This document shows, piece by piece, positions 2 to 42,271 of a DNA stretch of 42,271 bases. The stretch comes from a virus. Below the pieces are notes generated by a model, which searched no databases, was not told the DNA's origin, and worked only from the letters and a program-made list of their open reading frames with translations. The first letter of the stretch is position 1. Each line of letters starts with the position of its first letter. The stretch is from positions 1 to 42,271 of the IMG/VR virus record IMGVR_UViG_3300045741_000550. One strand, written 5' to 3'. Made by a program: the position numbers and the translations under genes.

Positions 2-3000
2 TATGAAAAAATTTACATTCCGCATGTGCAAAAGGAATTTGGGGCAAAACTGGTAAGTCAGGAGGCCGGCCCGACTTTGGGTTCGCAACAGCAAAAACCT
101 CCTTCGACCTGGTATCAATGGGATCTTGATCCTGCGTTGCAGAGAATTAACCCTGAGTACTACAGCATTGACAAAGGGGTTGAGGGGGAACTTGGGGATG
201 GGGAAGAGACGTACTACACCTCTGCTTTGCCGGACATGGAACGCCTTATGGCTTTGCTCGGTGCAAAGCTTTATGGTGACCCGGCAGAAATGGGGACAGT
301 GACAATCAAGGAATTCCTCCAGAATTCGTTTGACGCGATCAAACCTATGCTCGCAGATGGGAGGCTGTCGGAAGGGAAGATTGATATCACGCTCAATGAA
401 GAAACACGTCAGATTACGTTTTCCGACAATGGGCATGGAATGTCGAAGGAAACGTTGGGTGGGGCGTTTGTATCCCTTGCGGGTTCGAAGAAGGAAGGTA
501 AGAGAGCAAGTGGGTCGTTGGGACTCGCAAAGGGGTTGATTCTGTATGGTAACAAAGATCTCGAGGTTGAAACTACTCGGGATGGAGTTACAAGTTCAAT
601 GAAAACCACGGGGCTTGCACTTCTACAAGCCTCACAGGGTGGGCCAAAGGTTTCGATAGTCGCGAAGAGAACGGGAAAACCAGCGGGGACAAAGGTTACA
701 GTAACTCTTCCGAAAACTTATTTCAATACGGAAAGTGCGACTGATGAAGAAGTAGATTTTCCGTCTACGACTTGGATAGTTGTCTCTCCGCTTGCAAACA
801 GTCCACTTTTTGACAATATCGAGGTCACGTATAACGGTGAGAAAGTACTAATTGGAAAACACTTTCCTTATAATGAGTATTCGCAATTGTTCACCGTGCA
901 GTTCAATTGGGGAATAGCACGAGTTTACGTTGAAAAAAAGGAAGGAAACTATCCAAAATATTCAAACTTGGTAATGCTATCAAATGGTATTTACCAATTC
1001 CCTGCAACTCTCCTGGAAGATCCAACAAATCCGTGGGGGACACCACTTAAACGGCAGTTCTATGCCGACATCGTTCCGAACACAACGGGAGAACACGCAT
1101 CCTACCCGTTCCAGATGGACCGGCAAAGTTTCACGGCCCATGCTCAAAAGGATATGAATACACTGATTCTATATTTGAATCAGTTGTATCGAAAATCCGA
1201 ATTGGTTACGATGGGGAAAAAATACTCGGCGGTTTCGTATTTAACGCCTGCGGGGGATGTGGAGCCGTCAATTAGCCTAACTCCGCCGGTGCCAAAAGAA
1301 ACGTTAAATACTTTGTTCGAAGCCACGATTAATGACTCGGTCGAAGTTCGGGATGGGGAGTTGATTGTTAATAACAGACCCGTTCCGATGCACACAAAGG
1401 AGCAGTTGAAGGCTATTAAAACGGATTTGGCGCAGTTCCGTGTTGATCCAAGTCTGCTAAAGCCAAATCAGGTGATTTACCATGATAATTTGCTGGTGGA
1501 GCCGGGTATTTCCTTAGGGGAACCGAAAGGGTTGGTCCCACTCTCTCAAGAAATGGAAGGTCTTTTTGGCAAGAAATTTTTTAAGGCCATGAACGATCTT
1601 GGCGAATTTGGTCTTACTATGCGTGAGCACCTGGCAAACACGGAACAAGGGGCATCGGCAGAGGAGTACCGAGGATTCTCAGTTGGTATTGGTTTTGACC
1701 CTGCTTGGTATGGGTTAAACACAACGATTCCATTGCGTGTAATTTTTGTAAACCCAGCAGCGAAGATTGACAATGGAATTGACGGAGTTACTGAAACTCT
1801 GTGGATCACACTTTGGCACGAACTCGCGCATGTGCCACAACGCAATCACGGTGCGAAGTTTCAATCCCAGCTTGAGGATTTCCTCGTGGCTGGAGCAGTT
1901 AATCCCAAGTTGGTTCAACTCAAGAAAGATATTCGAGAGTGGGTTCGAGCTAATTGGGCAATCTTGGAGGTGTTACATGAATATCTCGTCTCCCCAAACA
2001 GCAAGCCTGCTACTGACGCTCTCGCAGAAAACGTCCAAAAAGGCACTGGACTCAGCGCTCGACGCCTTGATATCATTGGGAACCGGGCAAGGCGCAGAGC
2101 CGAGTTACTTAGACGCGCTCTCGGAAGCGAGGGTGGCCTTGAGGAATTCTCGGACATTGGACGAGTTTCTGATCCATCTGAAGAAGGCGACGGAGCAGAT
2201 CCCGCCAACGCCGGAGACGCTGTAAAGGCTCTTGGGGTTACTGATGACGTTCCAGAACTTCCTACGTATTTCAAACGAATGCAAGGATTCTTCCACGGAT
2301 CGCTTCAGTTACTCCAAACCGCAAAGTTGCTTCCGAACCTTAAGCCATTGCAGTATTACCGACGTTTGATGCAAAGCATGTCGAACATGAAAAATCAGTT
2401 GATGTCGGGCCCGAACCAACGGATCAAGGAGTGGTATAACCTCTCGAAGGAGGACTCACGGGGGGTTATGCAGATGATCAAAAAGGAGGTGTCGGGTGGG
2501 ACACATTGGACCGAGTTGGAGCGGGTTCCAGTAGTGTTGAATGGACAGCCTGGCACGATTTGGTTGCATAAGGCAACGCAACGAGTTCATGATGAGGCGA
2601 AGGCATTGGGGTTGTCCAATGCAGCTGTTCAGGTGTATATGGGGGTTAAGAATGATTTTCTTACAACCCTGGGTGAGATGGAAATGGTTGCGCATAGGAG
2701 TGTGCAGGATTTCTTTGCGAAGAACCCGATAAGTGCAGCAATTCGGGTGGGGGCGATTAACGCTGAGTTTAAAAAGCTTCGAGAAACTCCATATTTTCCT
2801 GATCGACGATTTGGAAAGTGGAGCAATGTGGTTCGGACAAAGAAAGAAATGGTGGTGGATGGAAAGACGATAAAGGCCGGGGAAACTGTTTTCTTTTCTG
2901 GCCACCGCCGCAAAGGTGCAAGGAATCGGGAATACAAGGAACTTGTGGCGAAGTATGGAAGTGACTATGCGGTTACAACAACCTATGTTGAAGATGAACC

Positions 3001-4906
3001 GTATGTCATGCGTAGCATGCCAAGGGAGTTGTTGCGTGCTCTTCCAGAAAAGCTAAGCCTCACTCCGGATCAAATAGATTTGTGGGAACAGCTCTATTAC
3101 GATGTCACCCGCGAGGGAAGCTATATCAAGATGTTGGGGATGGAAAAGAAATCCACAGCGGGGGCTGAACAGGATCTGCGAATGTCGTATGCGGATTACA
3201 TGTGGAGAACGAGTAATCTGATTTCGAAGATGGCGTATTCAAGGCCATTAAGCCGGGAGTTAAACAAAATTAAAACCATGGTCAAAACCATCAAAAACGT
3301 GGGCGGGAACAGTGAACCGCTTGAACGTTTGCATGAGTATTTGACGAAGAACTACGACTATGTCATGCGGCCACAAAGAGAGTACGAAGCTCTGAGGGCT
3401 TGGACGAGTTTGTGGTATCTTTGGGGTGCCCCAAAAACTGCGTTGATGAACTTGTCGACGTTGGCAACCACTTCCTATCCCTATCTTGCAGCCCGGTCGA
3501 ATGATCTTATTGCAACAAAGGAAATTATAAGGGCAATGAAGGATGTAGTGGCATATTGGAAGACCGGGAAGAGTGATGTTGAAACAGCTACGGTGTTGGC
3601 ACAAGGGCTGAAGGATGGCGTTATCAATCAGTCTTTTGCGGCGGAACTTGCGGCGGTGCAGGATGGCAATGCTATTGAAAGGTTGCTCCCAACATTTTCC
3701 ATGATGAAAGACTCTGGGCTGCGGGATACGACGAGAAAAGCCTTGTGGAAAACGATGCATTGGGGAATGTTGCCGTTTCGAGTCGCGGAGGGATTTAACC
3801 GGCAAGTTACTATGCTTGCGATGTACCGTATTGCCCGAGCACAAGAAAGTGAGGGGATTTTAAGCGGAAAGAAGGGTGATGGGAGTGCGTATCAAATTGC
3901 CCGTGATGCTGTGGACTTCACACAAAACGAATATGCTCCATGGAATCGGGCTCCGTTTCTCTGGGGAAAGAAGAGTGTCTTTTTGATATTCTACTCCTTC
4001 GTGCAACACATGGCCTTCTTCATGCTTGGTGGTGATAAGGGTTGGTTGCGGTCGTGGTTGATCCTTGCATTCCTGGCGGGGATGCAAGGACTTCCGGGAG
4101 TTGAGAATGTTATTGATGTGCTCAACTGGCTCGGAAGAAAATTTTTGGGAGAAACAGATCTCCGGCGAAGTGCGCGGGAGTTTGCACAAGGTGTGGGGGT
4201 GAACCCCGACTATGTGATGCATGGAGTTTCCCACTCAATGTTTGGTTTAGGGTGGGATGTGAGCGCGAGTATGAGTCTTGGCCGGATAATCCCGGGAACA
4301 GACGCAATCTTCGGTCAAGGATCTTTCGATCAGAGGTTGGCGCAAGCAGCCGGGGAGATTGGTGGGCCCTTCTTCTCACTCTCACTCGGTATCATGCAGG
4401 CTCTCACGAGTGATAACCCCAACATGCTACTCCGGCTTGATAAGGCTCTTCCACCCTTCTTTCGAAATTTGGAACGCACAGCGAATGCTATGCAACATGG
4501 TGAGTGGCAGAGCGGGACGGGGAAGACGCTGGTGGATGAGGTAACAGGAGTGGAGCTTTTGGGTCAGGCAATGGGGTTCGCGCCGACTTCAAAAACCGAA
4601 GCGCAGGAAAGGAATTATTTCCAACAACAAGCTGCACAATACTATGTGCTTCGACGAACGAATTTGATGGCAATGTTGTTTGAAGCAATAGAAGCAAAAG
4701 ACACTGATGCTATCGCAGACAGTCGAGAGGCAATTGCGAAGTACAATTTGGATGTTCCTGACCGGCAGTTGAAGATAACTCCGCAGGATATTCGTGCAAG
4801 CCTGAATGCGCGGAAAAGAACCGAGAAGGCAGTGGAGACGGGAATGGCGGCAACTCGCAGGTACCGGCCCCTATACGAAAGGGTCGGATCCACCTTTGCC
4901 GAGTGA
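2..4906 (+). CDS. Giant polyvalent ejection/virion protein, 5' end missing
   Basis: The frame is open to the left edge, so at least 1634 residues are the C-terminal part of a larger protein; GTG at 26 is probably not the start. Counting from that GTG, a GHKL (Hsp90/gyrase/histidine-kinase) ATP-binding motif set is visible: EFLQNSFDA at 96-104 (N box), DNGHGM at 134-139 and GSLGLAKG at 163-170. A zincin signature HELAHVPQRNH spans 598-608 with His spacing 0, 4, 10. The C-terminal half has long helical stretches and a hydrophobic segment near 1340-1365, as in the large polyvalent proteins that podoviruses eject with their DNA. It lies downstream of the ejection genes if the window is circular. 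The domain calls rest on motifs only; the overall class is inferred from size, composition and position. The 3' end overlaps the convergent gene by 36 bases. Confidence 0.75.
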   Translation, partial: YEKIYIPHVQKEFGAKLVSQEAGPTLGSQQQKPPSTWYQWDLDPALQRINPEYYSIDKGVEGELGDGEETYYTSALPDMERLMALLGAKLYGDPAEMGTVTIKEFLQNSFDAIKPMLADGRLSEGKIDITLNEETRQITFSDNGHGMSKETLGGAFVSLAGSKKEGKRASGSLGLAKGLILYGNKDLEVETTRDGVTSSMKTTGLALLQASQGGPKVSIVAKRTGKPAGTKVTVTLPKTYFNTESATDEEVDFPSTTWIVVSPLANSPLFDNIEVTYNGEKVLIGKHFPYNEYSQLFTVQFNWGIARVYVEKKEGNYPKYSNLVMLSNGIYQFPATLLEDPTNPWGTPLKRQFYADIVPNTTGEHASYPFQMDRQSFTAHAQKDMNTLILYLNQLYRKSELVTMGKKYSAVSYLTPAGDVEPSISLTPPVPKETLNTLFEATINDSVEVRDGELIVNNRPVPMHTKEQLKAIKTDLAQFRVDPSLLKPNQVIYHDNLLVEPGISLGEPKGLVPLSQEMEGLFGKKFFKAMNDLGEFGLTMREHLANTEQGASAEEYRGFSVGIGFDPAWYGLNTTIPLRVIFVNPAAKIDNGIDGVTETLWITLWHELAHVPQRNHGAKFQSQLEDFLVAGAVNPKLVQLKKDIREWVRANWAILEVLHEYLVSPNSKPATDALAENVQKGTGLSARRLDIIGNRARRRAELLRRALGSEGGLEEFSDIGRVSDPSEEGDGADPANAGDAVKALGVTDDVPELPTYFKRMQGFFHGSLQLLQTAKLLPNLKPLQYYRRLMQSMSNMKNQLMSGPNQRIKEWYNLSKEDSRGVMQMIKKEVSGGTHWTELERVPVVLNGQPGTIWLHKATQRVHDEAKALGLSNAAVQVYMGVKNDFLTTLGEMEMVAHRSVQDFFAKNPISAAIRVGAINAEFKKLRETPYFPDRRFGKWSNVVRTKKEMVVDGKTIKAGETVFFSGHRRKGARNREYKELVAKYGSDYAVTTTYVEDEPYVMRSMPRELLRALPEKLSLTPDQIDLWEQLYYDVTREGSYIKMLGMEKKSTAGAEQDLRMSYADYMWRTSNLISKMAYSRPLSRELNKIKTMVKTIKNVGGNSEPLERLHEYLTKNYDYVMRPQREYEALRAWTSLWYLWGAPKTALMNLSTLATTSYPYLAARSNDLIATKEIIRAMKDVVAYWKTGKSDVETATVLAQGLKDGVINQSFAAELAAVQDGNAIERLLPTFSMMKDSGLRDTTRKALWKTMHWGMLPFRVAEGFNRQVTMLAMYRIARAQESEGILSGKKGDGSAYQIARDAVDFTQNEYAPWNRAPFLWGKKSVFLIFYSFVQHMAFFMLGGDKGWLRSWLILAFLAGMQGLPGVENVIDVLNWLGRKFLGETDLRRSAREFAQGVGVNPDYVMHGVSHSMFGLGWDVSASMSLGRIIPGTDAIFGQGSFDQRLAQAAGEIGGPFFSLSLGIMQALTSDNPNMLLRLDKALPPFFRNLERTANAMQHGEWQSGTGKTLVDEVTGVELLGQAMGFAPTSKTEAQERNYFQQQAAQYYVLRRTNLMAMLFEAIEAKDTDAIADSREAIAKYNLDVPDRQLKITPQDIRASLNARKRTEKAVETGMAATRRYRPLYERVGSTFAE

Positions 4907-5393: not shown

Positions 5394-6579
5394 GTTTCAC
5401 CTTGATAAGGATTTGGTTTCCCTCCTGGGTTTGGATAATGTGGCCGGCAGCGAGGGCACTCTGCTTGGCCTTGCAATAGTCCTCGTAGGACATGGTACGG
5501 AAAAGGTGTTTGTAAAGTTCGGTGTCGGTAACAACCCCCACAGCGCGAACTGCGCTTACAAGGCGGGTAGCGCCGAGGGATTGTTGTGAGGAGCCGATTC
5601 GTTCAAAAACCTTTGGCATGTCGGCTTCGAGGGAACTTACGAGCTTTTCCGCCTTTTGCAGTATTTCAAGGGGAATAACAAGTTCATCCCCCTCACTCGC
5701 GGCAAGCACCATGGCGAGTTTGTGGATATGGGTTTGCTTCCGGGCCAAATACCCGCCCATACGATCACTGTCCATGTGAGTTGGAAGCTTAGCGTAGTGG
5801 TCAGCGTACCATTGTTCCCCCCAGGCATAAGCGTCTTCGGTGAGTTTGTACTCCCCAACGAGTTTTTCCGCTATATGGGTGAGATCGTGAATGAGCCGGG
5901 TTTGTAGCTCCTCATACCCGGCGGGGCGCTTACGGGAAGGATAGGCACTTAGGTTGCGTTTTTTATCTGCGTGGAGAAAGATACAGCGCGAGGTAAACCC
6001 GCCCCCAATCATCGACTCGGAAAAGTTATCTTCGATCCAAGACGGGGTGGTGCACCCGATCATGTTGATAAAGGGGTTCTCGATGGTGTCGTCCCCTTGC
6101 GTTTTCGTTTCCTTATCAAACACCCCTTTGCGCCCGTCCCAAAGCGATATGAGGGTGTTTATCATGTCGCTATCTTTTGGGTTTAAAAAGTTGCCCAATT
6201 CTCCCGACGCGACGGTGATGGCAGACATGGGATAAAGCAAATCCGAGTCGTCAACGCGAAACATTTCAAGCGACTTCGCCATCTTCTCGGCAAGTTTTTG
6301 CCAGGTGATGACTTGAGGCCCGAAGTGGATGCGGGGAACGGCGCGGAGGAGGTTAATGCCTACGTCGATTGTGGTTGTCTTAGATATAATTCCTGGCGGG
6401 GCAACAATGATGATGTAGAAATTTGGGACCCATTGAAATATAGTTTGGTCGATCCAAACATGACGTCGGAGGGCTCCGGCGATGGTAGCAACGCCGGTCC
6501 AGAAGTAAAGGGTGATAGGTGCCTCTCCGATTTCTGCATATTCAATGAACGCTTTTAACCAATCCTTGTGGTAACGCAA
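5383..6579 (-). CDS. DUF3987-type primase/helicase-like ATPase
   Basis: A 398-residue protein resembling the DUF3987 P-loop proteins that many phages carry beside their polymerase. A Walker A-like segment VAPPGIISKTTT lies near residue 60; it departs from GxxxxGK[ST] by having Ser before the Lys. The start is TTG at 6579, chosen because AAAAGGGG sits six bases upstream and the N-terminus matches the usual start of such proteins; no ATG lies nearby. It overlaps the polymerase gene by 38 bases. The likely role is in replication fork unwinding or priming, with the polymerase encoded just upstream. Confidence is good for the family and modest for the exact biochemistry. Confidence 0.75.
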   Translation of the reverse strand: MRYHKDWLKAFIEYAEIGEAPITLYFWTGVATIAGALRRHVWIDQTIFQWVPNFYIIIVAPPGIISKTTTIDVGINLLRAVPRIHFGPQVITWQKLAEKMAKSLEMFRVDDSDLLYPMSAITVASGELGNFLNPKDSDMINTLISLWDGRKGVFDKETKTQGDDTIENPFINMIGCTTPSWIEDNFSESMIGGGFTSRCIFLHADKKRNLSAYPSRKRPAGYEELQTRLIHDLTHIAEKLVGEYKLTEDAYAWGEQWYADHYAKLPTHMDSDRMGGYLARKQTHIHKLAMVLAASEGDELVIPLEILQKAEKLVSSLEADMPKVFERIGSSQQSLGATRLVSAVRAVGVVTDTELYKHLFRTMSYEDYCKAKQSALAAGHIIQTQEGNQILIKVKHGN

Positions 6580-9004
6580 TTGAAACCCCTTTTACTAAAC
6601 CCCAAGATTTTGGGCTTTGTTTGAAGCTGACAGGAATTGTCAGTGGGTCGTCGTAAGGGATGGTTACGCAGAAAAGCGGATAAATGTTTGCAAGGATGGT
6701 AAGGGGGTCGGGTTGTGGAACGGCAAGGGTAAGGGAGTCGTGGACTTGAAGGAGAGGGAAAATGTGCTTGGCGCGTTCGTGGATACGAATAAGAATTTCG
6801 TTGATCACGAGGGCAACGGTGGATTGCGGGAGCCAAGCAAGTGCTTCGGGAAGGATGGAGGAAATACGGTCGAGGAAGATGCGGTGGAAGCCGAAACGAT
6901 TGGTGATGGTTCGGTTGGTGCTGAGTTGAAGTTGGGTTCTTTCATGCCACTTTTTAATTCCAGGGTGCACGGCGAACCAGCGAGTGCGAAATTGGTCTGC
7001 GGCGTGGACGGTAATGCCCAGGGTCCGCGCAAGGGTGCGAGAGTATGCACCGTAGTCAGTAGCGTGAACTCCGTTTTTTGCATATTGACGTTGCAGTGCA
7101 AAGCGTAGTTTGTGTTCTCGACAGGCAGGATGTGTTTCGATCAGTTCATCATCGGGAAGGTTTTTTAAGTTGAAAATGTCCCGAGCGTTGTAAAGGTGCA
7201 TATCCACGCCAGCTCGAAGGGCTTCTTTTAATGGTTCATCCTCGGCCTCCCAAACTACCACTTGCAAATCGGCCCGGTCAAGGTCAACGTCGACAATGAC
7301 ATACCCTGGCGGGGGAACAATGAGGTTCCGCATGTTCGGGAGTGGGTAGCCGGTAAACTCGCTCGGACCCCCCGAGGTTAGGTTTTGCAGGTTTGTTCCG
7401 GAGTCAAACGCGTCTTCCTTGGAGGAAAAGCGGAAGGTTTCTGTTCCGGAAATGTTATAGGAACAACGCAGGCGATTGTCGTTTCCTAGCGGGCGTTTAA
7501 GTACGTTCAGGCCGGCGCCGATTGTGCGGGATTCGATAATGGCATAGCACAACTTTTGCACCAACGGTTCAACTTTTGCGAGTTCCTTTAACGCGTCTTC
7601 GTCGGTAGTTGGCCGCTTTGTTTTTGGGTTGAACTGCACGGGGAGGTTTAGCCGGTGGTAAAAGAACTCTTGGAGTTGTTGCGGGGAGCGAACGTTTAAA
7701 CCTCCGCTAAGTCTATTCACCGTGCTTTCTCGAACGTTGATCGCTTCTAATAGTTCCAAAGCCATTTTGTTTCGCAGGGGGAGGTCAACGTCGACTCCTC
7801 GCAGCATCATGTCGAAGACAGCGTTGTAAACGCGCTTTTGGAATTGGAAAGGTTTGGTGAGGTTCATAGAACGAATCACCGCGTCGAGGGCGTAGGAACA
7901 TTCGTAGGTGACCACCGCGTCTTTGCAGTTATATCCCCACCATTGTTCCTCAGGATCGTTCCGAGGGTCGAATTCTTTTCCTTCGTCTTTCCAGTATTGG
8001 TGGAAACGACAATAAAGAGAGGAAAGGTGGTCCAACCCCTTTGGAGTTCCCGGCCAACACAGGTGATGGGCAATCATGGTGTCCATATATGTGTTGCACT
8101 TGAACCCCCAATATCGAGCGTTGTATTGTTCGTCGTAGGTAAAGTTTTGCCCCACCACTTCGACGTTTGGATGGGTTAAGAGCCGGCGGAGGAGTTTGAT
8201 AACGATGAGTTCCTGCTCGCGTTGGAAGTATCTTTCTCCTGTTTGCACGCTGAGAAAAGGGATGCAAATGGCATCGTAGTTTGACCAGGCAATGCCGCAA
8301 CAGGCAATTAAACTCCAACGAGTTTCAAGGTCTTCGGCCACGCGGAGGTGGACGCCGGAGTCGAGTTTGGTTATCAGAGATTGAAGCACCTCACAAGTTT
8401 TTTCAAAAGAGGGCCGGATGTGGAATGAGTAGGGCGGGTAGCGAACCTCGGGGTAGAGGGATTCGAGACGGGCGTGGCGGAGGTCATGAACCGCGAAGAA
8501 GCGATTTTCCCATTGACGGAGAATTCCGGCGGGGTGAAAGGTGGGGACAACTTTAAAGGGGGCAAATTCGTCAACACCTTGGAGTGTGGAGTTGCGCCAG
8601 GAGGTTATCCCCCAGTGTCCAGTCAATGCCCAAAGAGGTGCGTTGCCGAGAGCGATGACAACGTTTGGTCGGATCTGAGAAAGGTCGTGGAAAAGTTGGG
8701 TTAGACCGAGCTGGATCTTGTCGTTGAAATTCAATCCATGGCGAGTGAGGTAAAGGTCCCTTTCCTTTATGTGTTTCTTTTTTTCACTCAGCCAGTTGGT
8801 GAGGTCATTATCGGGTGGGCGGAGGTTTATAACGTTGGTGAGATAGCACTCATTTCTGTCAATCCCCGCATCGGTGAGCATACGGGTGAGTTCCTTCCCG
8901 CTTTCCCCCACAAAGGGGGCTTTTTCTTCGTCCTCCGTGGCGCCATACGCCTCGCCGACGATAACGATTCTTGCGCTGCTTGGTCCTTTTCCACCGAGGT
9001 TCAT
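6542..9004 (-). CDS. Uracil-DNA glycosylase / 3'-5' exonuclease / family A DNA polymerase fusion
   Basis: This 820-residue replicative polymerase has three parts. Residues about 11-190 match family 4-like uracil-DNA glycosylases (GEAYGATED, PFVGESG, later PTFHPAGILR). A DEDDy exonuclease follows: Exo I EDLET near 222, Exo II NFTYD near 288, Exo III YNCKDA near 358. The palm and fingers hold motif A DLDRADLQ near 571, motif B RQYAKNGVHATDYG near 640-653 and motif C QVHDS near 753. Motif A has Asp where Pol I has the Glu steric gate, motif B has His at the position equivalent to E. coli Phe762, and motif C has HDS rather than HDE. Glycosylase-like N-termini on phage polymerases are known from SPO1-type phages. 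The start ATG has AAGGA upstream and overlaps the previous stop as ATGA. Confidence 0.93.
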   Translation of the reverse strand: MNLGGKGPSSARIVIVGEAYGATEDEEKAPFVGESGKELTRMLTDAGIDRNECYLTNVINLRPPDNDLTNWLSEKKKHIKERDLYLTRHGLNFNDKIQLGLTQLFHDLSQIRPNVVIALGNAPLWALTGHWGITSWRNSTLQGVDEFAPFKVVPTFHPAGILRQWENRFFAVHDLRHARLESLYPEVRYPPYSFHIRPSFEKTCEVLQSLITKLDSGVHLRVAEDLETRWSLIACCGIAWSNYDAICIPFLSVQTGERYFQREQELIVIKLLRRLLTHPNVEVVGQNFTYDEQYNARYWGFKCNTYMDTMIAHHLCWPGTPKGLDHLSSLYCRFHQYWKDEGKEFDPRNDPEEQWWGYNCKDAVVTYECSYALDAVIRSMNLTKPFQFQKRVYNAVFDMMLRGVDVDLPLRNKMALELLEAINVRESTVNRLSGGLNVRSPQQLQEFFYHRLNLPVQFNPKTKRPTTDEDALKELAKVEPLVQKLCYAIIESRTIGAGLNVLKRPLGNDNRLRCSYNISGTETFRFSSKEDAFDSGTNLQNLTSGGPSEFTGYPLPNMRNLIVPPPGYVIVDVDLDRADLQVVVWEAEDEPLKEALRAGVDMHLYNARDIFNLKNLPDDELIETHPACREHKLRFALQRQYAKNGVHATDYGAYSRTLARTLGITVHAADQFRTRWFAVHPGIKKWHERTQLQLSTNRTITNRFGFHRIFLDRISSILPEALAWLPQSTVALVINEILIRIHERAKHIFPLLQVHDSLTLAVPQPDPLTILANIYPLFCVTIPYDDPLTIPVSFKQSPKSWGLVKGVSIALPQGLVKSVH

Positions 9005-10308
9005 CGCGCAATCCTTGTTAAAGCTGTTGCATGGTGGCGTTCGGAAATTTCAATTCCGGTGGCGATGAGGGAAAGCCGGTCGGCTGCGTCGAAGATGGGA
9101 CCGCTTCCGCAGCAAGGGTCAAGAACGCGATCGCCAGGATTGCAGGAACGGCGGAGAAGGTTTTCGAGCACCTCAACGGGCTTGGCCGCGGCGTGGAGTG
9201 ACGCATCGGCGGGGTTGGCGATGATGGTGTCGAAATAAACTCCCTTCACCCGCTTATCCCCCCGAGTGGCGTAGATGATCATTTCGTAGGATTTTCTCGG
9301 ACCGCGGGTGGAGTCACCAAGCATTCCGCCAGTGGGTTTGTGCCAAATTATCGGAGTTGGCCAAACAACCCAACCTGCGTAGGTGAGGATTAACTTGACC
9401 GTTTCCCAGTGGCGAAAGTCGAGGAACATGTAAAGGTGGGCTTCGGGCTTGCAGACTTGAGCACCGAAATTGGCAATGCACTCCCAAATTTTCTTTGCAC
9501 TTTCGGGAGAATCTTCATACTCGTGCATCATCCCGCTTTCGCTTTGAGACATTGGGGTCATCTTGTGCGCGTTGATTCCATAGGGGGGGTCGACGAGGAT
9601 GACGTCGTAGCGGGTCGGTTCAACGCAAAGTAGCGGGAGGTAGTCGAGGCACGACCCGCAAATTAATCGGTGGGGTTTGTTAACGCGGTTAAGATCCATG
9701 CGTTTGGCGAGGGCCCCGCGAAAAATGTCGGTGAGTTTTTTCTTCACGATATTCACCGCTTCCCGCCGAGTTTTCGCCCCCTTTACGTCGTCATCCTGTA
9801 AATAGGGTTCCAGCATTACGTTTTCGCGGAGGTCGGTAATAGCGGCGGTGTTGAAACTATCTCCTTTAATTTCTCGTGCCGTATCCGTCAAGGTTTGAAC
9901 CGTTCCCACCGTATCCGCTTGTTTCACACGGAACTTGTGAAGGCGTGCTTCTGCCGCAACCCGATCCTGCCACGAAAGGTCTTCGCGGGCAATGTTCTCG
10001 GTGTATTCGATTTCTTGTCGGAGCTGATCGTCAACATCCGAGCGAAGGAGAACTGGCACACAGCCTAAGGGCCCGAGTTCGTTTGCGCAGAGAATCTCCG
10101 ATTCGAGTTTACGCATTGCAAGAAGTCGGCGTTCTCCTACGAGGAGGTAGGGTTCCTCCAGGGATTCGACAACAATGGGGTGGATCAATCCAAAGTGTTT
10201 GATCGAATCCATCAAGGCTTTGAGTTTCTTTTCATCCATCGACTTCCGTTGCCGGTCTTGGCGCACGATAACGGTGTCGTGAGGAATCCAGTGGATCGTA
10301 GATGGCAT
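9001..10308 (-). CDS. ParB-like domain fused to DNA N4/N6 methyltransferase
   Basis: The N-terminal ~200 residues resemble the ParB/Srx fold found in phage fusion proteins, with the family segment LLVGERRLLAMRKL near residue 55-70 and helical text after it. The C-terminal half is an amino-methyltransferase: catalytic motif IV DPPYGIN near 238-244 precedes the S-adenosylmethionine motif I DPCCGSGP near 396-403, the order of the beta class. It should modify adenine or cytosine in DNA, protecting phage DNA or marking sites recognised with the ParB part. ATG at 10308 has AAGGA about nine bases upstream. A strong terminator hairpin ends just before that ribosome binding site. The 3' end overlaps the polymerase start as ATGA. 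Confidence 0.9.
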   Translation of the reverse strand: MPSTIHWIPHDTVIVRQDRQRKSMDEKKLKALMDSIKHFGLIHPIVVESLEEPYLLVGERRLLAMRKLESEILCANELGPLGCVPVLLRSDVDDQLRQEIEYTENIAREDLSWQDRVAAEARLHKFRVKQADTVGTVQTLTDTAREIKGDSFNTAAITDLRENVMLEPYLQDDDVKGAKTRREAVNIVKKKLTDIFRGALAKRMDLNRVNKPHRLICGSCLDYLPLLCVEPTRYDVILVDPPYGINAHKMTPMSQSESGMMHEYEDSPESAKKIWECIANFGAQVCKPEAHLYMFLDFRHWETVKLILTYAGWVVWPTPIIWHKPTGGMLGDSTRGPRKSYEMIIYATRGDKRVKGVYFDTIIANPADASLHAAAKPVEVLENLLRRSCNPGDRVLDPCCGSGPIFDAADRLSLIATGIEISERHHATALTRIAR

Positions 10309-27343: not shown

Positions 27344-27930
27344 GCACCGCAACGAAAACCGCACGGAACATCATCGCGCGCGGTACCGCCAACGCTGCGT
27401 TCACCCAACTCACCGGATGCTCGGTCACGCGCTCGGGAACAACGGCGACGCTGACAAAGACCTCGCACGGGCTGAGCAACAGCGACAAGGTGCTCATCCA
27501 AGGCTTTGAGCTGGAAGAGTTCAACGGCGTATTCACCATTTCTAACGTGGCCACGAACACCTTCGACTACATCATCAAGCAAGACCCGGGCGCAAACCCG
27601 TCGGGCACGCCGGGGACGGTCGACAAGGTGACGCTCGGCACTGCGGTGGACTTGTCCACGGCCTACGGTCTTCAGGTGCAGATCGGCCTTCAGAACAAGA
27701 ACACTGGCCCCGGCGTGGCACCGCAGGTTTGGAAGGGTGTGGCGAACGCGAACAACGAGTACGACTACATCTGGAGTCAAATTGGGGTCGGCGACACGAC
27801 AGCCAACAGCTTGACCTCGATAGTTGACTTCGTTGACGGGGCAGTGATGTTCGTCAACTATACGGTGTGTCGCAACACATCGCAGAGCGTTGACTGCTAC
27901 GCGATCGCCAGCGAATTGACGAGCGGTTAA
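27340..27930 (+). CDS. Putative virion or tail-associated beta-rich protein, G+C-rich, 196 aa
   Basis: Two beta-rich parts: an N-terminal Ig-like segment (TLTKTSHGLSNSDKVLIQGF, then NGVFTISNVATNTFDY), common in phage tail proteins, and a C-terminal jelly-roll-like part (ITVCRN-type text is absent; FVDGAVMFVNYTVCRNTS is seen). ATG at 27340 overlaps the upstream stop as ATGA with AGGGGAG before it. G+C-rich codon use is shared with the gene before it. A structural role is inferred. Confidence 0.65.
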   Translation: MSTATKTARNIIARGTANAAFTQLTGCSVTRSGTTATLTKTSHGLSNSDKVLIQGFELEEFNGVFTISNVATNTFDYIIKQDPGANPSGTPGTVDKVTLGTAVDLSTAYGLQVQIGLQNKNTGPGVAPQVWKGVANANNEYDYIWSQIGVGDTTANSLTSIVDFVDGAVMFVNYTVCRNTSQSVDCYAIASELTSG

Positions 27931-29906
27931 TGTTTTTGCGAAACACACCGTGGGGAGGCACTAAACCTCCTCGTGGGTCCATGCTTACCGGGGGTCACCC
28001 TATTAACAACGGTAGAGTTGGTCTTTGGCTGATGAACGAGGTTGGTGAGAGGAGCTTTTCCAACCTCGTGCAGAAGCGGCGTGCGATTTTTGCCTCTAGC
28101 TCCGCCGCTCCAACGTGGATGCCGAGCAAGTTTGGCCCTGGGGTCAAGTACACGCGCGCCTCCTCACAGAAAGCTACGGAGACGTATGCCGCGTGGATGA
28201 GTGTCAAGGCGATTACGCTATCTGCGTGGATCAATTTGCCGGGGGCGAGTACGGCCAATTATCACCAGATAATGGATCGGGATAACTTCGGAGCAAGCCA
28301 GCGGTCGTTTCAGTTACGCACTGTTGGCGGCGGGGGTAATGCTGGAAAGCTTGAGTTCATTCCATTTGACGCCACCACCAACGGCTCGATTATTAGCAAC
28401 ACAGTCGTTGTCAACTCGGGGTGGCACCACGTTGTCGCGACCTATTTAAACACCGCCCCGGCCGCATACGACGTCTATATCGACGGGGTGAAAGATGCCA
28501 CGACCAAAACAGACCGCTCGGGCGACTTGAGAGCAAGCACCGCCGATCTGGCTTTCGGCACCGATCAGTCCGCCGGCGGTTTCTACATGGAGGGGTGGAT
28601 TGACAACTGCTCCATGTGGAGCAGGGCATTGACGGCGAGGGAAATCTGGCAACTGTATAAAGACCCGTTTGTCGGCGTTGTACCTTTCAAACGCATCAAG
28701 CCGACTGTGTCTGTTGCTGTGCCTGGAGCGTACAAGTCTATTCGACGGCGGTGGGGCGCGGTAAAGCCAGGACGCGGTTGGGGAGTGGACACTGCTGACC
28801 CCATCAATAAAGGCATGTTCGGGTGTTGGTTGTTCAACGAGTCTAACGGTCTGAAGGCATACGATCTTTGCCAAGGCAAGTATCACGGAGATTTAACCAG
28901 CTCTCCGAAGTGGTCTGCGGGCCGGTTCGGGCCGGGCATAAACGTGGTTTCTGGCTCGTATGTGGACATGGCTGGATTGGCGGGTAACGATTCCCGCTTT
29001 ACGTCTTCGTCCAGCGCGACGTTCACAGTTGCGTCGTGGTTCAAAACAACCAACACAGCGTTGCAGTTCTTGGTAGATACAGAAACCGCATCTAATACTG
29101 AAGGATTCAGTATTCTCACCAACATGACTGGCAGCGATGGGGGGTGTTTTGGGGCAAGGACGAAGAATGGGTCGTCTCAGTATTTAGGTCGGGCATCAAC
29201 TACGGTAGTTGCCGACGGCAAATGGCATTTCTGCGTAGCTGTCGTTAAAGCAAATACCACGGATTACACACAGCAAGACATCCAACTATATGTGGACGGC
29301 GTCTCCAATCAGGGCACGCTTACAAACGCGGGTGTATCCGCAGCACCGGCCAGCACAACCTTTCGGGTAGGCGCGCGACGCAGCGGGGCAAATCCTTTTA
29401 ATGGCACGATTGATCATATTCGCCTCTGGAGCCGTGCGATCACGCCGGCAGAGATGAAACGCCTCTATACCGAGCCCTTCGCCGGAATTCTCGGACCACG
29501 CGTTTTGATCGGGTCGGTCGCAGCGGCGGGTGGGAGTTATACGCTGTCGCTTGCAAACGCAGTGTTCTCCCTGCTCACTGCGTCACCAACCTCGAAGCTG
29601 CGTTCGATACTCACCGCGTCTGCGCTAAACGTTTTAGGTACCGCAGTACAGAACAAGACTACGGCTAAACTTACCGCGCCAGCTCTTGCCATTACTGGTG
29701 CCTCATTAACTGGACGTTTGAGTTTCATTCTCAGTGCGGCATCTCTTTCTTTTGTATCTCCGGCTTTGAATTTTGTTCTCCACTATTTCCTTATCCTTAC
29801 GGCGGCCACGATCCAGATATCGGGGCAAGCAGTGCAGCTTGGGGGAAACTTTATTCGAGCTTGTTGGGTTTTTTTAATGCGCCGTAGACGGCGTGGGAGT
29901 TCGTGA
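27930..29906 (+). CDS. Double LamG-domain protein with C-terminal short repeats, 658 aa
   Basis: Two concanavalin/LamG-type modules are visible. The first runs about 25-250 (GRVGLWLMNE, later GWHHVVATYLN, WIDNCSMWSRAL) and the second about 290-520 (GMFGCWLFNE, KWHFCVAV, TIDHIRLWSRAI). The paired segments show an internal duplication. The last ~130 residues hold roughly five 20-residue repeats of the LTAxAL...G type, seen in phage tail proteins, and end in a run of Arg. LamG modules bind glycans or proteins, so a receptor-binding or surface decoration role is likely. Translation is coupled to the previous gene (TAATG). It lies inside the head-gene block. Confidence 0.8.
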   Translation: MFLRNTPWGGTKPPRGSMLTGGHPINNGRVGLWLMNEVGERSFSNLVQKRRAIFASSSAAPTWMPSKFGPGVKYTRASSQKATETYAAWMSVKAITLSAWINLPGASTANYHQIMDRDNFGASQRSFQLRTVGGGGNAGKLEFIPFDATTNGSIISNTVVVNSGWHHVVATYLNTAPAAYDVYIDGVKDATTKTDRSGDLRASTADLAFGTDQSAGGFYMEGWIDNCSMWSRALTAREIWQLYKDPFVGVVPFKRIKPTVSVAVPGAYKSIRRRWGAVKPGRGWGVDTADPINKGMFGCWLFNESNGLKAYDLCQGKYHGDLTSSPKWSAGRFGPGINVVSGSYVDMAGLAGNDSRFTSSSSATFTVASWFKTTNTALQFLVDTETASNTEGFSILTNMTGSDGGCFGARTKNGSSQYLGRASTTVVADGKWHFCVAVVKANTTDYTQQDIQLYVDGVSNQGTLTNAGVSAAPASTTFRVGARRSGANPFNGTIDHIRLWSRAITPAEMKRLYTEPFAGILGPRVLIGSVAAAGGSYTLSLANAVFSLLTASPTSKLRSILTASALNVLGTAVQNKTTAKLTAPALAITGASLTGRLSFILSAASLSFVSPALNFVLHYFLILTAATIQISGQAVQLGGNFIRACWVFLMRRRRRGSS

Positions 29907-38621: not shown

Positions 38622-40394
38622 ATGGCAAATGCAAACACTCTTTTTCCGGAATTGCAGATCAACGGCGCTTTGAAGCCTAATGGTGGGAAATTTGGCGCGC
38701 AGTATGGTTTGTTTCGACTTCCCGATGGACGACTCGCTCGCGCTGTAGACCCAAATGCTGATAACGGGCCATACAGTCAAATCGACATGCAGGGAAGTAA
38801 CCAGTTCTACTTCCAGCCGAGTACGCCACTTCCGATAACCGGTTGGACCGGCGTTCCCCATGACGATGACAACGGTGGAATTGCCTACAACACGCCGAAT
38901 TACCAAGATCCGTTCGAGGCTGGAAGAGTGAGTCGGGCGACCATTGGCGGCAAGCAGTTCTACGTCTACAACGAGGAGCCGACTACTGGAAGCCACGATG
39001 TAACGACTGGTGGGGAATCGTATCTGGAAGGCTTAGGGACGAGTGTTCTCGGGGGTTTAATGGGAGGGGGACTTGCAAGTCTTAACAGCTTTGGAAACGC
39101 TGTTGAGGCCGCTGGTGGGTTGAGCAATTTCGTGTCGAATACTGGTTCGAACCTTTCCGATTACTTCTCAAATCTGTTTTCGGGTGGAAGCGGAAGTACT
39201 CCGGTTTTCCCCACAGATTTGGGGGTGAAAAATTTTGCAGATGTTACAATGCCAATTTCCGCGTCTGGAGGTGATACGATGAGCTGGGCTGAAAACTTTG
39301 GATTAACACCGGAGCAGTGGAAATCCATGGAAATACTCGATATGTATACCCCTTCCGGAACTGATTGGATGAGTAAACTGGCTCCTGGGGGAATTGGTCC
39401 CGATTTCGGTTTGGATCCAGAACTTTTGAAACAATTTACCAATGCGAGTGCCGTTCCGTCCCAAAGTATGTTGGATGAGCTTTGGCGGACAGCGGGACTC
39501 GACCCCGCTGAAATGCGAACTCCGGTAACTACTCCGGGTCTGACCACGAATTTGGCCAATAGCGCCTCGGGAGTACCCACAATCGATCTTGGACCTTTGG
39601 GGCCGATGTATGATACTCTTCGACAAATTCCTGGGATTGGCAAGATTCTGCCCGGGTTTGCTGCAAATGCTGTTGGTGGAGGTGCGGGAGGTACAGGTGG
39701 GGGTACCGGGTCGTCTGCGGGGGCTTTGCCGGCAATTATTGGTGCTCTTTTAGGCGCGACGCAAGGACAGCCCGCCCCGATTTCTACCACGCAAACCCCC
39801 TGGGCTCCTGCAATTCCGTACATGCAGAATGCACTGCAAGGAGTGCAAACTGCAGCGGGAAATGCACATCTTAATTTGCCGGATGTTCCCCAGATCACGC
39901 CCTTTACCGGGACGATGTCGCCTGAGTATATTCAACAGGCAATCGAAGCCGCGCTGTCTCCGGTAACGCAAACATTGCAACGCCAGGTTTTGCCCCAGAT
40001 TAACGCGAATTCGGCGGGAGCTGGTGCGCTCGGGGGAACGAGGCAAGGGGTTGCGCAGGGACTTGCCGTGAGTGATTGGGAAAAAACGGCGGGGAACATT
40101 GCGGCGGGGATGCGGCAGAATTACGACGTTACCCGCGCGAAAGAGGCGTTGGATGCGTGGACGGCAAATACCAACGCAACACAACAGACGTATCAAAACC
40201 AGGTCGGGGCGGCAACGGCAAATGCAACGTTCCCTATCAACACAGCACTTTCTTTTGCCAACGCAGCCAACGCAGCAGGAGGCGGGGGGAGGAGTACGGT
40301 GACTCCGCTTCCGACAACTCCGTGGTGGCAAACCGCACTTGGCGGGGCGTTGGCGGCAGATACAGTGGCAAACAAAGTGTTCTCGGACCGTTAG
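38622..40394 (+). CDS. Ejection (internal virion) protein, Gly/Ala-rich, 590 aa
   Basis: The C-terminal half (PEYIQQAIEAALSPV, then QINANSAGAGALGGTRQGVA) matches a motif common in podovirus ejection proteins, and Gly-rich linkers (GGGAGGTGGGTGSSAGA) divide the chain. The N-terminal half is of mixed composition. It would be stored in the head and pass into the host envelope with the DNA. It is followed by another Ala-rich ejection-type gene. Confidence 0.78.
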   Translation: MANANTLFPELQINGALKPNGGKFGAQYGLFRLPDGRLARAVDPNADNGPYSQIDMQGSNQFYFQPSTPLPITGWTGVPHDDDNGGIAYNTPNYQDPFEAGRVSRATIGGKQFYVYNEEPTTGSHDVTTGGESYLEGLGTSVLGGLMGGGLASLNSFGNAVEAAGGLSNFVSNTGSNLSDYFSNLFSGGSGSTPVFPTDLGVKNFADVTMPISASGGDTMSWAENFGLTPEQWKSMEILDMYTPSGTDWMSKLAPGGIGPDFGLDPELLKQFTNASAVPSQSMLDELWRTAGLDPAEMRTPVTTPGLTTNLANSASGVPTIDLGPLGPMYDTLRQIPGIGKILPGFAANAVGGGAGGTGGGTGSSAGALPAIIGALLGATQGQPAPISTTQTPWAPAIPYMQNALQGVQTAAGNAHLNLPDVPQITPFTGTMSPEYIQQAIEAALSPVTQTLQRQVLPQINANSAGAGALGGTRQGVAQGLAVSDWEKTAGNIAAGMRQNYDVTRAKEALDAWTANTNATQQTYQNQVGAATANATFPINTALSFANAANAAGGGGRSTVTPLPTTPWWQTALGGALAADTVANKVFSDR

Positions 40395-40403
40395 GAGAAA
40401 ATC

Positions 40404-41684
40404 ATGGCCGGTTTCAATATGGCGGATCAAACCAATTTTGAGATGAACACTCAACCCATCGTTCCCCTCGGACCCACAATGCCGGCTCCGGTTGCGGTTC
40501 CTCCTCCTGTTGTGCCACCGATGCAAAGCCCGGAGTTGCAGGCTCAACAACCGTTGATTCCGAGGGAAATGCTCTCACAGTTGTTGGCAAAGGCGCTGGG
40601 AACACCACAAGCCTCTCCGGAGGATATGGTAACGGCAAAGTTCAAGATCGCACAAGCCCTCCTCCAGCCCAGGATGCAAGGGCAAAGTGTGGCCGGGAAT
40701 ATCGGGAATGCGTTGGGTGCGGGGGTGGATACTGTTAATGCGTCGCAGGAAAGGGCGCGGCAACAGGCGGTTCAGAATGCTCAGCTAGCGTCCACGATTG
40801 GAGCCCAAGATACTCAAACGCGCCAAGCAGAAATGTCGATGGCGCAGGCTGCGCAGAAGTTCCCGTTGGAAATGAAGAAGCTAACGGAAGAAGTGCAGCA
40901 ATTGAAGGTGGAGGGACGAATCAAGGAGGCGCAGGCAATTGTGGCGGAGTTTCAATCGAACCCGGCGCGGTTGCTTGAGGATTACAAAACGAAGTTGGAA
41001 AAGACCCGGGCGGAAACAGGAAAAGCCGAGGCGGAAGCGAAAAAGGCTACGGCGGAAGCGACCATTGTGGCTCCCGCCCATGCAGCGTATTACACTGCTG
41101 CGGGCGAGGCGGAGAGAAATCGAACTGCTGCGTTGGACAATACCAAGGTGCAAATGCTTAATACTCCAGATGGGGTGTTTGAGTATGACCCGCAGGCGAA
41201 GAAGATGCGACATATCCGGCCTGGCCTGACACAGGCTGAGGCGTTTGCACAAGCGAAAAAGGAGTTGGATTCTCCTTGGGGTCCTACCCCTACGGAAAAG
41301 ATCCGATTGCGAGCACAGGAGTTGATGCAACCAAAAGCAGTTCCGGTGGACTTGACGGGAACTGGAGTTGCGCCAGCAACCGCAGCAGCAGCGGCTCCTG
41401 CACAAGCTACTCCCTCCGCAACAACGGAAACTTCTGTGAGGATAGCCCGTCGACGTGCAGATGGGGGAATTGAAGTAGATGTTCCTCGTATGAGTGCAAG
41501 ATCAAGGCTGGGTGCTGATGCTAACCTTTCCGATGGAGACAAGAAAAAGCTCATCGCAGGAAAGTATCGAAAGCTGATTCCCGGTGCGGGGGATGAAGAT
41601 CGAGTGGAGTATGGTCAACTCTCAAGCACGGATGAACGGCTGGCTTGGTTGCGTGAACGCGCGCAGGCGCGTGGGTTGGAATAA
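40404..41684 (+). CDS. Ala/Glu-rich coiled-coil ejection protein, 426 aa
   Basis: Long helical, Ala/Glu/Lys/Gln-rich protein with a central coiled coil (residues about 110-240, e.g. RAETGKAEAEAKKATAEA) and a Pro-rich N-terminus. The pattern matches internal virion proteins that form a channel for DNA transfer. TTAGGAG precedes the ATG. It lies between the 590-aa ejection protein and the start of the giant polyvalent gene. Confidence 0.75.
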   Translation: MAGFNMADQTNFEMNTQPIVPLGPTMPAPVAVPPPVVPPMQSPELQAQQPLIPREMLSQLLAKALGTPQASPEDMVTAKFKIAQALLQPRMQGQSVAGNIGNALGAGVDTVNASQERARQQAVQNAQLASTIGAQDTQTRQAEMSMAQAAQKFPLEMKKLTEEVQQLKVEGRIKEAQAIVAEFQSNPARLLEDYKTKLEKTRAETGKAEAEAKKATAEATIVAPAHAAYYTAAGEAERNRTAALDNTKVQMLNTPDGVFEYDPQAKKMRHIRPGLTQAEAFAQAKKELDSPWGPTPTEKIRLRAQELMQPKAVPVDLTGTGVAPATAAAAAPAQATPSATTETSVRIARRRADGGIEVDVPRMSARSRLGADANLSDGDKKKLIAGKYRKLIPGAGDEDRVEYGQLSSTDERLAWLRERAQARGLE

Positions 41685-41721: not shown

Positions 41722-42271
41722 ATGGCAAAAGTATTCGAGTTTGAAGGCCAAAGATACCATTTTCAGGACTATGTTCCTGATGATGTTGCCTTGGAAAAGA
41801 TTAAAGAACTTAGCCAGCCGGCGAGTTGGGCGGATACCGCTGGGCAAATCTTGCCTGAAACGCGCCGACAGTTGGTCGAAACCGTCGCTGGGACAAAAGG
41901 CGCGCTGGGAGATGTGTTTAAGATCCCTTCTTGGGTAGAGGAGGCACAGCGAGTTCGGAGTGAAGTTACCTCTGAGCGGAATATCCAAACCCCGTTGAAT
42001 CTTTCAATGGGGCAAGAAGCGTTGATCTCAGGAGGAGCGAGTGCGCTGACGCAGTTGCCGTCCCTGGCGGCAAGTGCAGTTGGTGCTCCCTTTCTTGCGG
42101 CGCGGGTTGGGTTGAAGGAAGCTGCAAAAGCGTTGGCTTCAAGCACCACAACCCTCATGGGTGCACAAACGGGGTTGCAAAAATACGGAGAGTCACGGGA
42201 TTATGGGTTTTCGCCGACTCGAAGTGCGGTGCATGGGTTGATCCATGGGTTGGTGGAGAAGTACACAGAAT
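41722..42271 (+). CDS. 5' part of the giant polyvalent protein, cut by the window edge
   Basis: ATG at 41722 has AGGAAATTCTC upstream. The open frame (at least 183 residues) starts with FEFEGQRYHFQDYVPDDVAL, a short module like those at the N-terminus of podovirus ejection proteins, then a Gly/Ala-rich helical region (GASALTQLPSLAASAVGAP) that could contact membrane. It ends at the edge with KYTE. If the last two bases of the window are the first two (AT), the frame continues exactly into the open frame at position 2, giving one protein of about 1818 residues. Confidence 0.7.
   Translation, partial: MAKVFEFEGQRYHFQDYVPDDVALEKIKELSQPASWADTAGQILPETRRQLVETVAGTKGALGDVFKIPSWVEEAQRVRSEVTSERNIQTPLNLSMGQEALISGGASALTQLPSLAASAVGAPFLAARVGLKEAAKALASSTTTLMGAQTGLQKYGESRDYGFSPTRSAVHGLIHGLVEKYTE

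Follow-up and report, generated by a model that had tools for sequence, protein, structure and literature searches.

The window, by which we mean the entire stretch of DNA analysed here, comprises an IMG/VR virus record in full (42,271 bases). Its genes include those for a capsid protein and portal of SU10 type and for a T7-type terminase domain, and the virus is an SU10-like podophage with a bacterial host. The open reading frame at 2..4906 (+) specifies 1634 amino acids and is 5' open at the record edge. The first-pass annotation had taken 2-4906 for a giant protein gene; the reading frame stands, but it encodes only the C-terminal portion of a giant protein of the polyvalent/ejection kind, an assignment based on the open 5' end and on the internal position of its conserved module in related proteins. 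The N-terminus lies at 41722..42270 (+), in a frame that is the last of the ejection cluster and is 3' open. It encodes 183 Ala/Gly-rich, hydrophobic residues with weak similarity to the N-termini of the giant proteins of two relatives, G002 (1.4e-4) and G010 (1.1e-5). The reading frames do not match across the 42271/1 joint, and thus a stretch of the giant gene is missing between the record ends; no contig was found with an exact DNA probe to bridge both ends. The 1634 C-terminal and 183 N-terminal residues are the visible part of the incomplete gene, and any counterpart of the first zincin of G002 (zincin-1) would fall outside them. The record is a permuted fragment, with the giant gene split at its ends (41722-42271 and 1-2).

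Two genes precede the giant gene in this cluster. The product of 38622..40394 (+) resembles a DNA ejection protein (PHROG 4287 ‘DNA ejection protein’, 5.6e-7). Directly upstream of the giant gene, 40404..41684 (+) encodes a probable ejection-cluster protein that matches the gene at the same place in G002 (1.6e-5) and was assigned no family in the family search.

The giant protein carries a GHKL ATPase domain closest to Hsp90

Residues 78-242 (233..727, +) form a GHKL (Hsp90-like) N-domain, as judged from Pfam, Foldseek and invariant alignment columns. The GHKL-like motif spacing noticed in the first-pass annotation is borne out: the N-box (E104-N108-D111; 311-337, +) lies in EFLQNSFDA at residues 104-112, the G1 motif (D142-G144-G146; 425-442, +) in DNGHGM at 142-147 and the G2 motif (S170..K177; 512-535, +) at GSLGLAKG, 171-178, with G3 at G229-T230. 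Pfam HATPase_c_3 scores 29.8 bits (cut-off 25; E=7e-7, residues 100-203), and HATPase_c is likewise above its cut-off. The structure prediction that had been proposed as a check gave the same answer for the ATPase; with an AF2 model of residues 60-680 (pLDDT 84, pTM 0.76), the best 50 Foldseek matches in the PDB are all Hsp90/TRAP1, with E values down to 1.9e-14. With both the motifs and the Bergerat fold present, the domain is a member of the GHKL ATPase superfamily.

Within this superfamily, the domain is closest to Hsp90. Indeed, comparison by hhalign yields lower E values for HtpG (2.8e-8) than for MutL (1.1e-5), GyrB (7.4e-5) or T4 RIIA (4.3e-4). The NCBIfam HtpG/HSP90 models reach 15-32 bits, which is below their cut-offs of 371-455; the domain resembles the N+M part of Hsp90 and is not classed as an Hsp90. 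The overall rmsd of the Hsp90/TRAP1 overlay is high, and therefore it is the individual domains that match, rather than the assembly as a rigid body. The protein shares with HtpG/TRAP1 the N-domain motifs and the N+M fold arrangement, but differs from them in a middle domain that is unrecognisable by sequence, in having no Hsp90 C-terminal domain that we could see, and in the fusion to a protease. An ATPase of the Hsp90/MORC/gyrase type had been suggested, and of these the Hsp90 likeness stands while that to gyrase does not. A gyrase or topoisomerase identity was rejected on its scores, which are below those of Hsp90, and on the lack of Toprim; no Toprim or topoisomerase catalytic domain was reported in family scans of the window protein and related carriers. 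T4 RIIA is also a phage protein with an N-terminal GHKL domain and is among the structural matches, but RIIA has no zincin, is a separate protein and is less similar than Hsp90. In a review of jumbo phages, topoisomerases and RIIA are the only proteins for which GHKL is mentioned.

Residues 243-420 (728..1261, +) form a middle, transducer-like domain, defined by invariant columns and by Foldseek similarity to TRAP1, with some alignments covering TRAP1 N+M fragments over ∼440 columns. Profile comparison found no sequence-level match of this domain to the Hsp90 middle domain or its catalytic Arg loop. The domain has two invariant motifs, SxGxxQF (residues 327-333) and YPFxxxR (residues 368-374; 1103-1123, +). 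We infer that YPFxxxR, a candidate catalytic arginine loop, occupies the position of the catalytic Lys/Arg loop of GHL ATPases, ahead of an amphipathic helix; YPFxLNRQxF resembles the HtpG loop LPLNVSREILQ, a likeness by eye only. A linker of variable length in the alignment of relatives (residues 421-504; 1262..1513, +) connects the middle domain to the zincin.

A weakly Wss1-like zincin follows the ATPase in the same chain

The zincin domain, which corresponds to the second zincin of G002 (zincin-2), spans residues 505-670 (1514..2011, +) and includes HELAHVPQRNH at residues 606-616 (1817-1849, +), with F620 downstream. It is defined by Pfam WLM/YgjP matches in relatives, by the AF2 model and by the invariant H, E and H. 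The match of the window sequence alone to Pfam is weak (YgjP-like, 0.14). Among relatives the values are 4.9e-5 for WLM, found in 6 of 18 carriers, and 2.3e-4 for YgjP, found in 3 of 18; the zincin of G002 matches WLM at 3.3e-4, under the Pfam cut-off. Modelled alone by AF2, the zincin has a pLDDT of 90, and Wss1/SPRTN are its best Foldseek matches by probability (0.75-0.90), with weak E values of 0.3-1.3. A profile search with the zincin matches abylysin and Wss1. Across 34 sequences, H606, E607 and H610 never vary, and conservation of H616 and F620 is at least 90%; the family thus keeps the HExxH and third His of a zincin metallopeptidase.

HELAHVPQRNH had been read as either metzincin or SprT-like. 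The SprT-like spacing holds, but the metzincin reading was rejected, with the best matches instead to WLM/Wss1, YgjP and abylysin. Like Wss1/SPRTN (WLM, SprT-like) and the minigluzincin abylysin, the domain has HExxHxxxxxH and a following Phe; unlike these proteases, to which its overall similarity is low, it has no DNA-binding or Ub-like partner domains that we could see and is coupled in one chain to an ATPase. It is highly likely that both active sites, GHKL and zincin, are functional.

The C-terminal core points to delivery with the phage DNA

The C-terminal delivery core occupies residues 757-1634 (2270..4903, +), ending ...RPLYERVGSTFAE, and is defined by NF032893 and PHROGs. NCBIfam NF032893 ‘PLxRFG’ scores 249 bits over residues 930-1620 (cut-off 100), and the core matches PHROG 11358 (2e-43) and the DarB-like antirestriction PHROG 10089 (9.5e-22). 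This region is common to 73 phage records, in which it is annotated as DNA methylase, Snf2 helicase, lytic transglycosylase, structural protein or internal virion polymerase; among the phage giants that share the core, the C-terminal part is common and the remainder differs. Neither the adenine methylase nor the SWI2/SNF2 helicase of DarB is present in the 1634 residues, and from its sequence the window protein appears to share only the C-terminal core with DarB antirestriction proteins.

The DarB-like protein gp69 of phage JC1 (4515 aa) was identified in purified virions by mass spectrometry, from 51 unique peptides (PMC9144972). By analogy, the PLxRFG/DarB-like core, this virion homologue, the SU10-type virion genes and the nearby ejection-like gene make it very probable that the window giant is a virion ejection protein. 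The claim that both domains sit in one chain of the polyvalent type is upheld, since the chain is homologous to giant virion proteins through the PLxRFG core. It is a giant chain in which several unrelated domains are combined with polyvalent-associated ones, and LPD38, LPD39, LPD22 and ART-PolyVal domains are present in carriers of the module. The giant multidomain chain and the homologous C-terminal core, together with polyvalent-associated and zincin-like domains in relatives, are features of polyvalent proteins (including DarB-like/PLxRFG giants) as presented in the main text of Iyer et al. 2017 (PMC5512222). The pair of GHKL and Wss1-like zincin is not described in that main text, in which GHKL has 0 occurrences. 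Literature searches turned up no paper on a phage GHKL-zincin protein. Polyvalent proteins are thus already known, and the new part is the pairing of GHKL and zincin.

The layout also resembles that of the N4 virion RNA polymerase, gp50, which has an N-terminal anchoring region, a central enzyme, an HExxH domain and a large helical C-terminal region (PMC12633501). The central enzyme is an RNA polymerase in gp50, but an Hsp90-like ATPase here.

In G002, the capsid protein of which is 68% identical to that of the window, the giant consists, in order, of an N-terminal hydrophobic region, zincin-1 (HEFGH, 586), GHKL (from 915), zincin-2 (HELAHIPERSH, 1356), ART-PolyVal (1529-1712) and the C-terminal core. 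The ART-PolyVal ADP-ribosyltransferase domain of the G002 giant (1529-1712; L027:8078-8629) is just at the Pfam cut-off and does not occur in the window protein. Despite the close capsid proteins, the module is ∼30% and the core overlap ∼26% identical between the window and G002, and thus the whole protein evolves fast. GHKL and zincin-2 are absent from other relatives with this core, namely G006, G008, G009, G010, G013 and Mel-JY34, and are therefore optional cargo; most relatives without GHKL still carry a separate HExxH.

The GHKL-zincin pair is a conserved module of uncultured phages

GHKL and zincin form one module of ∼600 residues in constant order. Scanning IMG/VR with the full ORF as a lone query gave no match. 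Relatives were reached through the major capsid protein, followed by a two-sequence alignment of window and G002 stretches; the two-sequence scan gave 68 loci (34 clusters), and a widened scan gave 125, of which 80 were kept. The scan peptides came from the GHKL and middle domains only, and therefore the zincin provides independent evidence, while conservation of the N-box is partly selected by the search. Once identical proteins were removed, 81 distinct giant carriers with the N-box were left, all from uncultured phages, and so the combination is not unique to the window phage. HExxHx5H follows the N-box in 77 of the 81 and HExxH alone in the other 4, with no carrier lacking it (81/81); when carrier sequences were shuffled, 0.7% had HExxH within a stretch of 520 aa and 0% had HExxHx5H. 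Chance pairing of GHKL and HExxH is excluded. The module is internal in the carriers, usually hundreds of residues past the start, and complete carrier ORFs have a median length of 2866 aa. The longest open frame seen to bear the module is L157 ORF 2-16678, with >5,500 residues.

The conservation alignment comprised 34 sequences, each representing a cluster, nearly all with <65% mutual identity. Invariant columns include E104, N108, D111, D142, G144, G146, S170, G171, K177 and G229 in the ATPase, and further along Q332, F333, Y368-F370, R374, N584, P585, H606, E607 and H610; the zincin residues are conserved as strongly as those of the ATPase.

A search of 50,697 phage records gave one partial GHKL match and no complete module; nor was the module found whole in 72,556 plasmids, where only the GHKL part of ‘ATP-binding proteins’ matched. 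Among bacterial genomes, in a collection of 84,980 species, only two MAG contigs matched, one interrupted by Ns and the other matching near its terminus, outside any long open frame. BFVD entry A0A516L4L2_1, a UniProt-derived viral model, contains the whole module (E 2.8e-58, TM 0.86, 27% identity across 634 columns).

The C-terminal core of the window protein is found in 51 of 70 carrier ORFs and not in the remainder, a few of which are truncated at contig ends. On the module tree, in which some rows are long-branched, the core label changes 5 times, and at least 4 of these changes are forced by starred branches. Furthermore, carrier L050 has the N-terminal region of the N4 virion RNA polymerase and a different C-terminus. 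These core switches and L050 indicate that the cargo module moves among delivery proteins, and it rides on at least two kinds of them. The retention of residues in 34 clusters with <65% identity and the exchange among delivery proteins argue that the module must be useful; since the cultured-phage collection yielded no complete copy, it has escaped study. Proteins ejected by a phage encounter host defences before any others do, and for most of them no function has been assigned. Judged from sequence, the module looks like a widespread infection tool of uncultured phages.

A proposed model of ATP-gated proteolysis in the infected cell

The constant pairing, the constant order and the double conservation suggest that ATPase and protease act together. 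The conserved linkage shows a functional unit; ATP-driven proteolysis by this unit is a proposal that goes beyond the linkage. We propose that the giant acts as an ATP-gated ejected protease, a model to which, as a whole, we give a probability of about 0.5. Judging from its homologues, the giant would travel inside the phage head and enter the host together with the DNA. The N-terminal hydrophobic region would probably stay at the inner membrane, the C-terminal ∼700 residues would serve as the shared delivery part, and the cargo between them would be the Hsp90-like N and middle domains joined to the Wss1/SprT-type zinc protease. A protein threaded through the narrow phage tail must refold, and the chain would do so upon reaching the ATP-rich cytoplasm. 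ATP binding would then close the GHKL part, probably as a dimer, and closure would present a substrate to the zincin or unmask the zincin, so that a protein is cut. Mechanical coupling of the ATPase and protease is, to us, an even proposition.

The likeliest substrates may be host proteins bound to the incoming DNA or close to it, which are favoured because of the likeness of the zincin to DNA-protein-crosslink proteases; the giant's own polypeptide would come next. That a host protein is the main substrate is a tentative suggestion. In the fullest form of the model, such giants would make up a class of ATP-dependent proteases, delivered by phages, whose Wss1-like zincin is powered or gated by an Hsp90-like GHKL machine instead of an AAA+ motor, and they would strip host (possibly defence) proteins from incoming DNA; we regard this full form as rather unlikely. 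To our knowledge, AAA+ motors drive the ATP-dependent proteases described so far, and coupling a protease to an Hsp90-type ATPase would depart from that design.

The main rival to ATP-gated proteolysis is self-processing, in which zincin-2 cuts its own giant chain, ATP signals arrival in the cytoplasm and the domains are freed as effectors. Zincin-2 does sit between the cargo and the delivery core, and in the text of Iyer et al. autoprocessing by zincin-like domains of polyvalent proteins is proposed and P1 DdrB is described as processed prior to packaging; the same text, however, has the N4 virion RNA polymerase and conjugative ArdC/TraC1 travelling unprocessed (PMC5512222). Moreover, a processing protease seems to be present without the module, as most GHKL-less relatives keep another HExxH, and zincin-2 is thus probably dispensable for general processing. 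We consider self-processing somewhat unlikely.

The Hsp90/TRAP1 proteins are the nearest structural neighbours of the ATPase, as would be expected if it were a chaperone that refolds the ejected polypeptide(s) after passage through the tail, with the zincin only trimming misfolded material, and unfolding followed by refolding is proposed for ejected giants like the N4 polymerase (PMC12633501). Yet the Hsp90 C-terminal dimerisation/client domain was not seen, the AF2 model runs on into the linker and zincin, and the many related giants without the module show that such delivery does not require it, all of which makes a chaperone improbable. Weak matches to topoisomerase VI B, T4-type topoisomerase II and RIIA would fit a GHKL domain that acts on DNA or membrane state, with an incidental zincin. 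This reading is very improbable, given that no Toprim or topoisomerase catalytic domain was found, that Hsp90 outscores GyrB, MutL and RIIA in profile comparison, and that the zincin residues are conserved equally with those of the ATPase.

Other genes in the window

Elsewhere in the window, 6542-9004 (-) encodes an 820-aa protein that combines a uracil-DNA glycosylase superfamily domain with a 3'-5' exonuclease and a family A DNA polymerase, and 9001-10308 (-) encodes an N6/N4 DNA methylase fused to a ParB_N domain. The 658-aa product of 27930-29906 (+) has two LamG/ConA-like lectin stretches and is probably a tail or adhesion protein.
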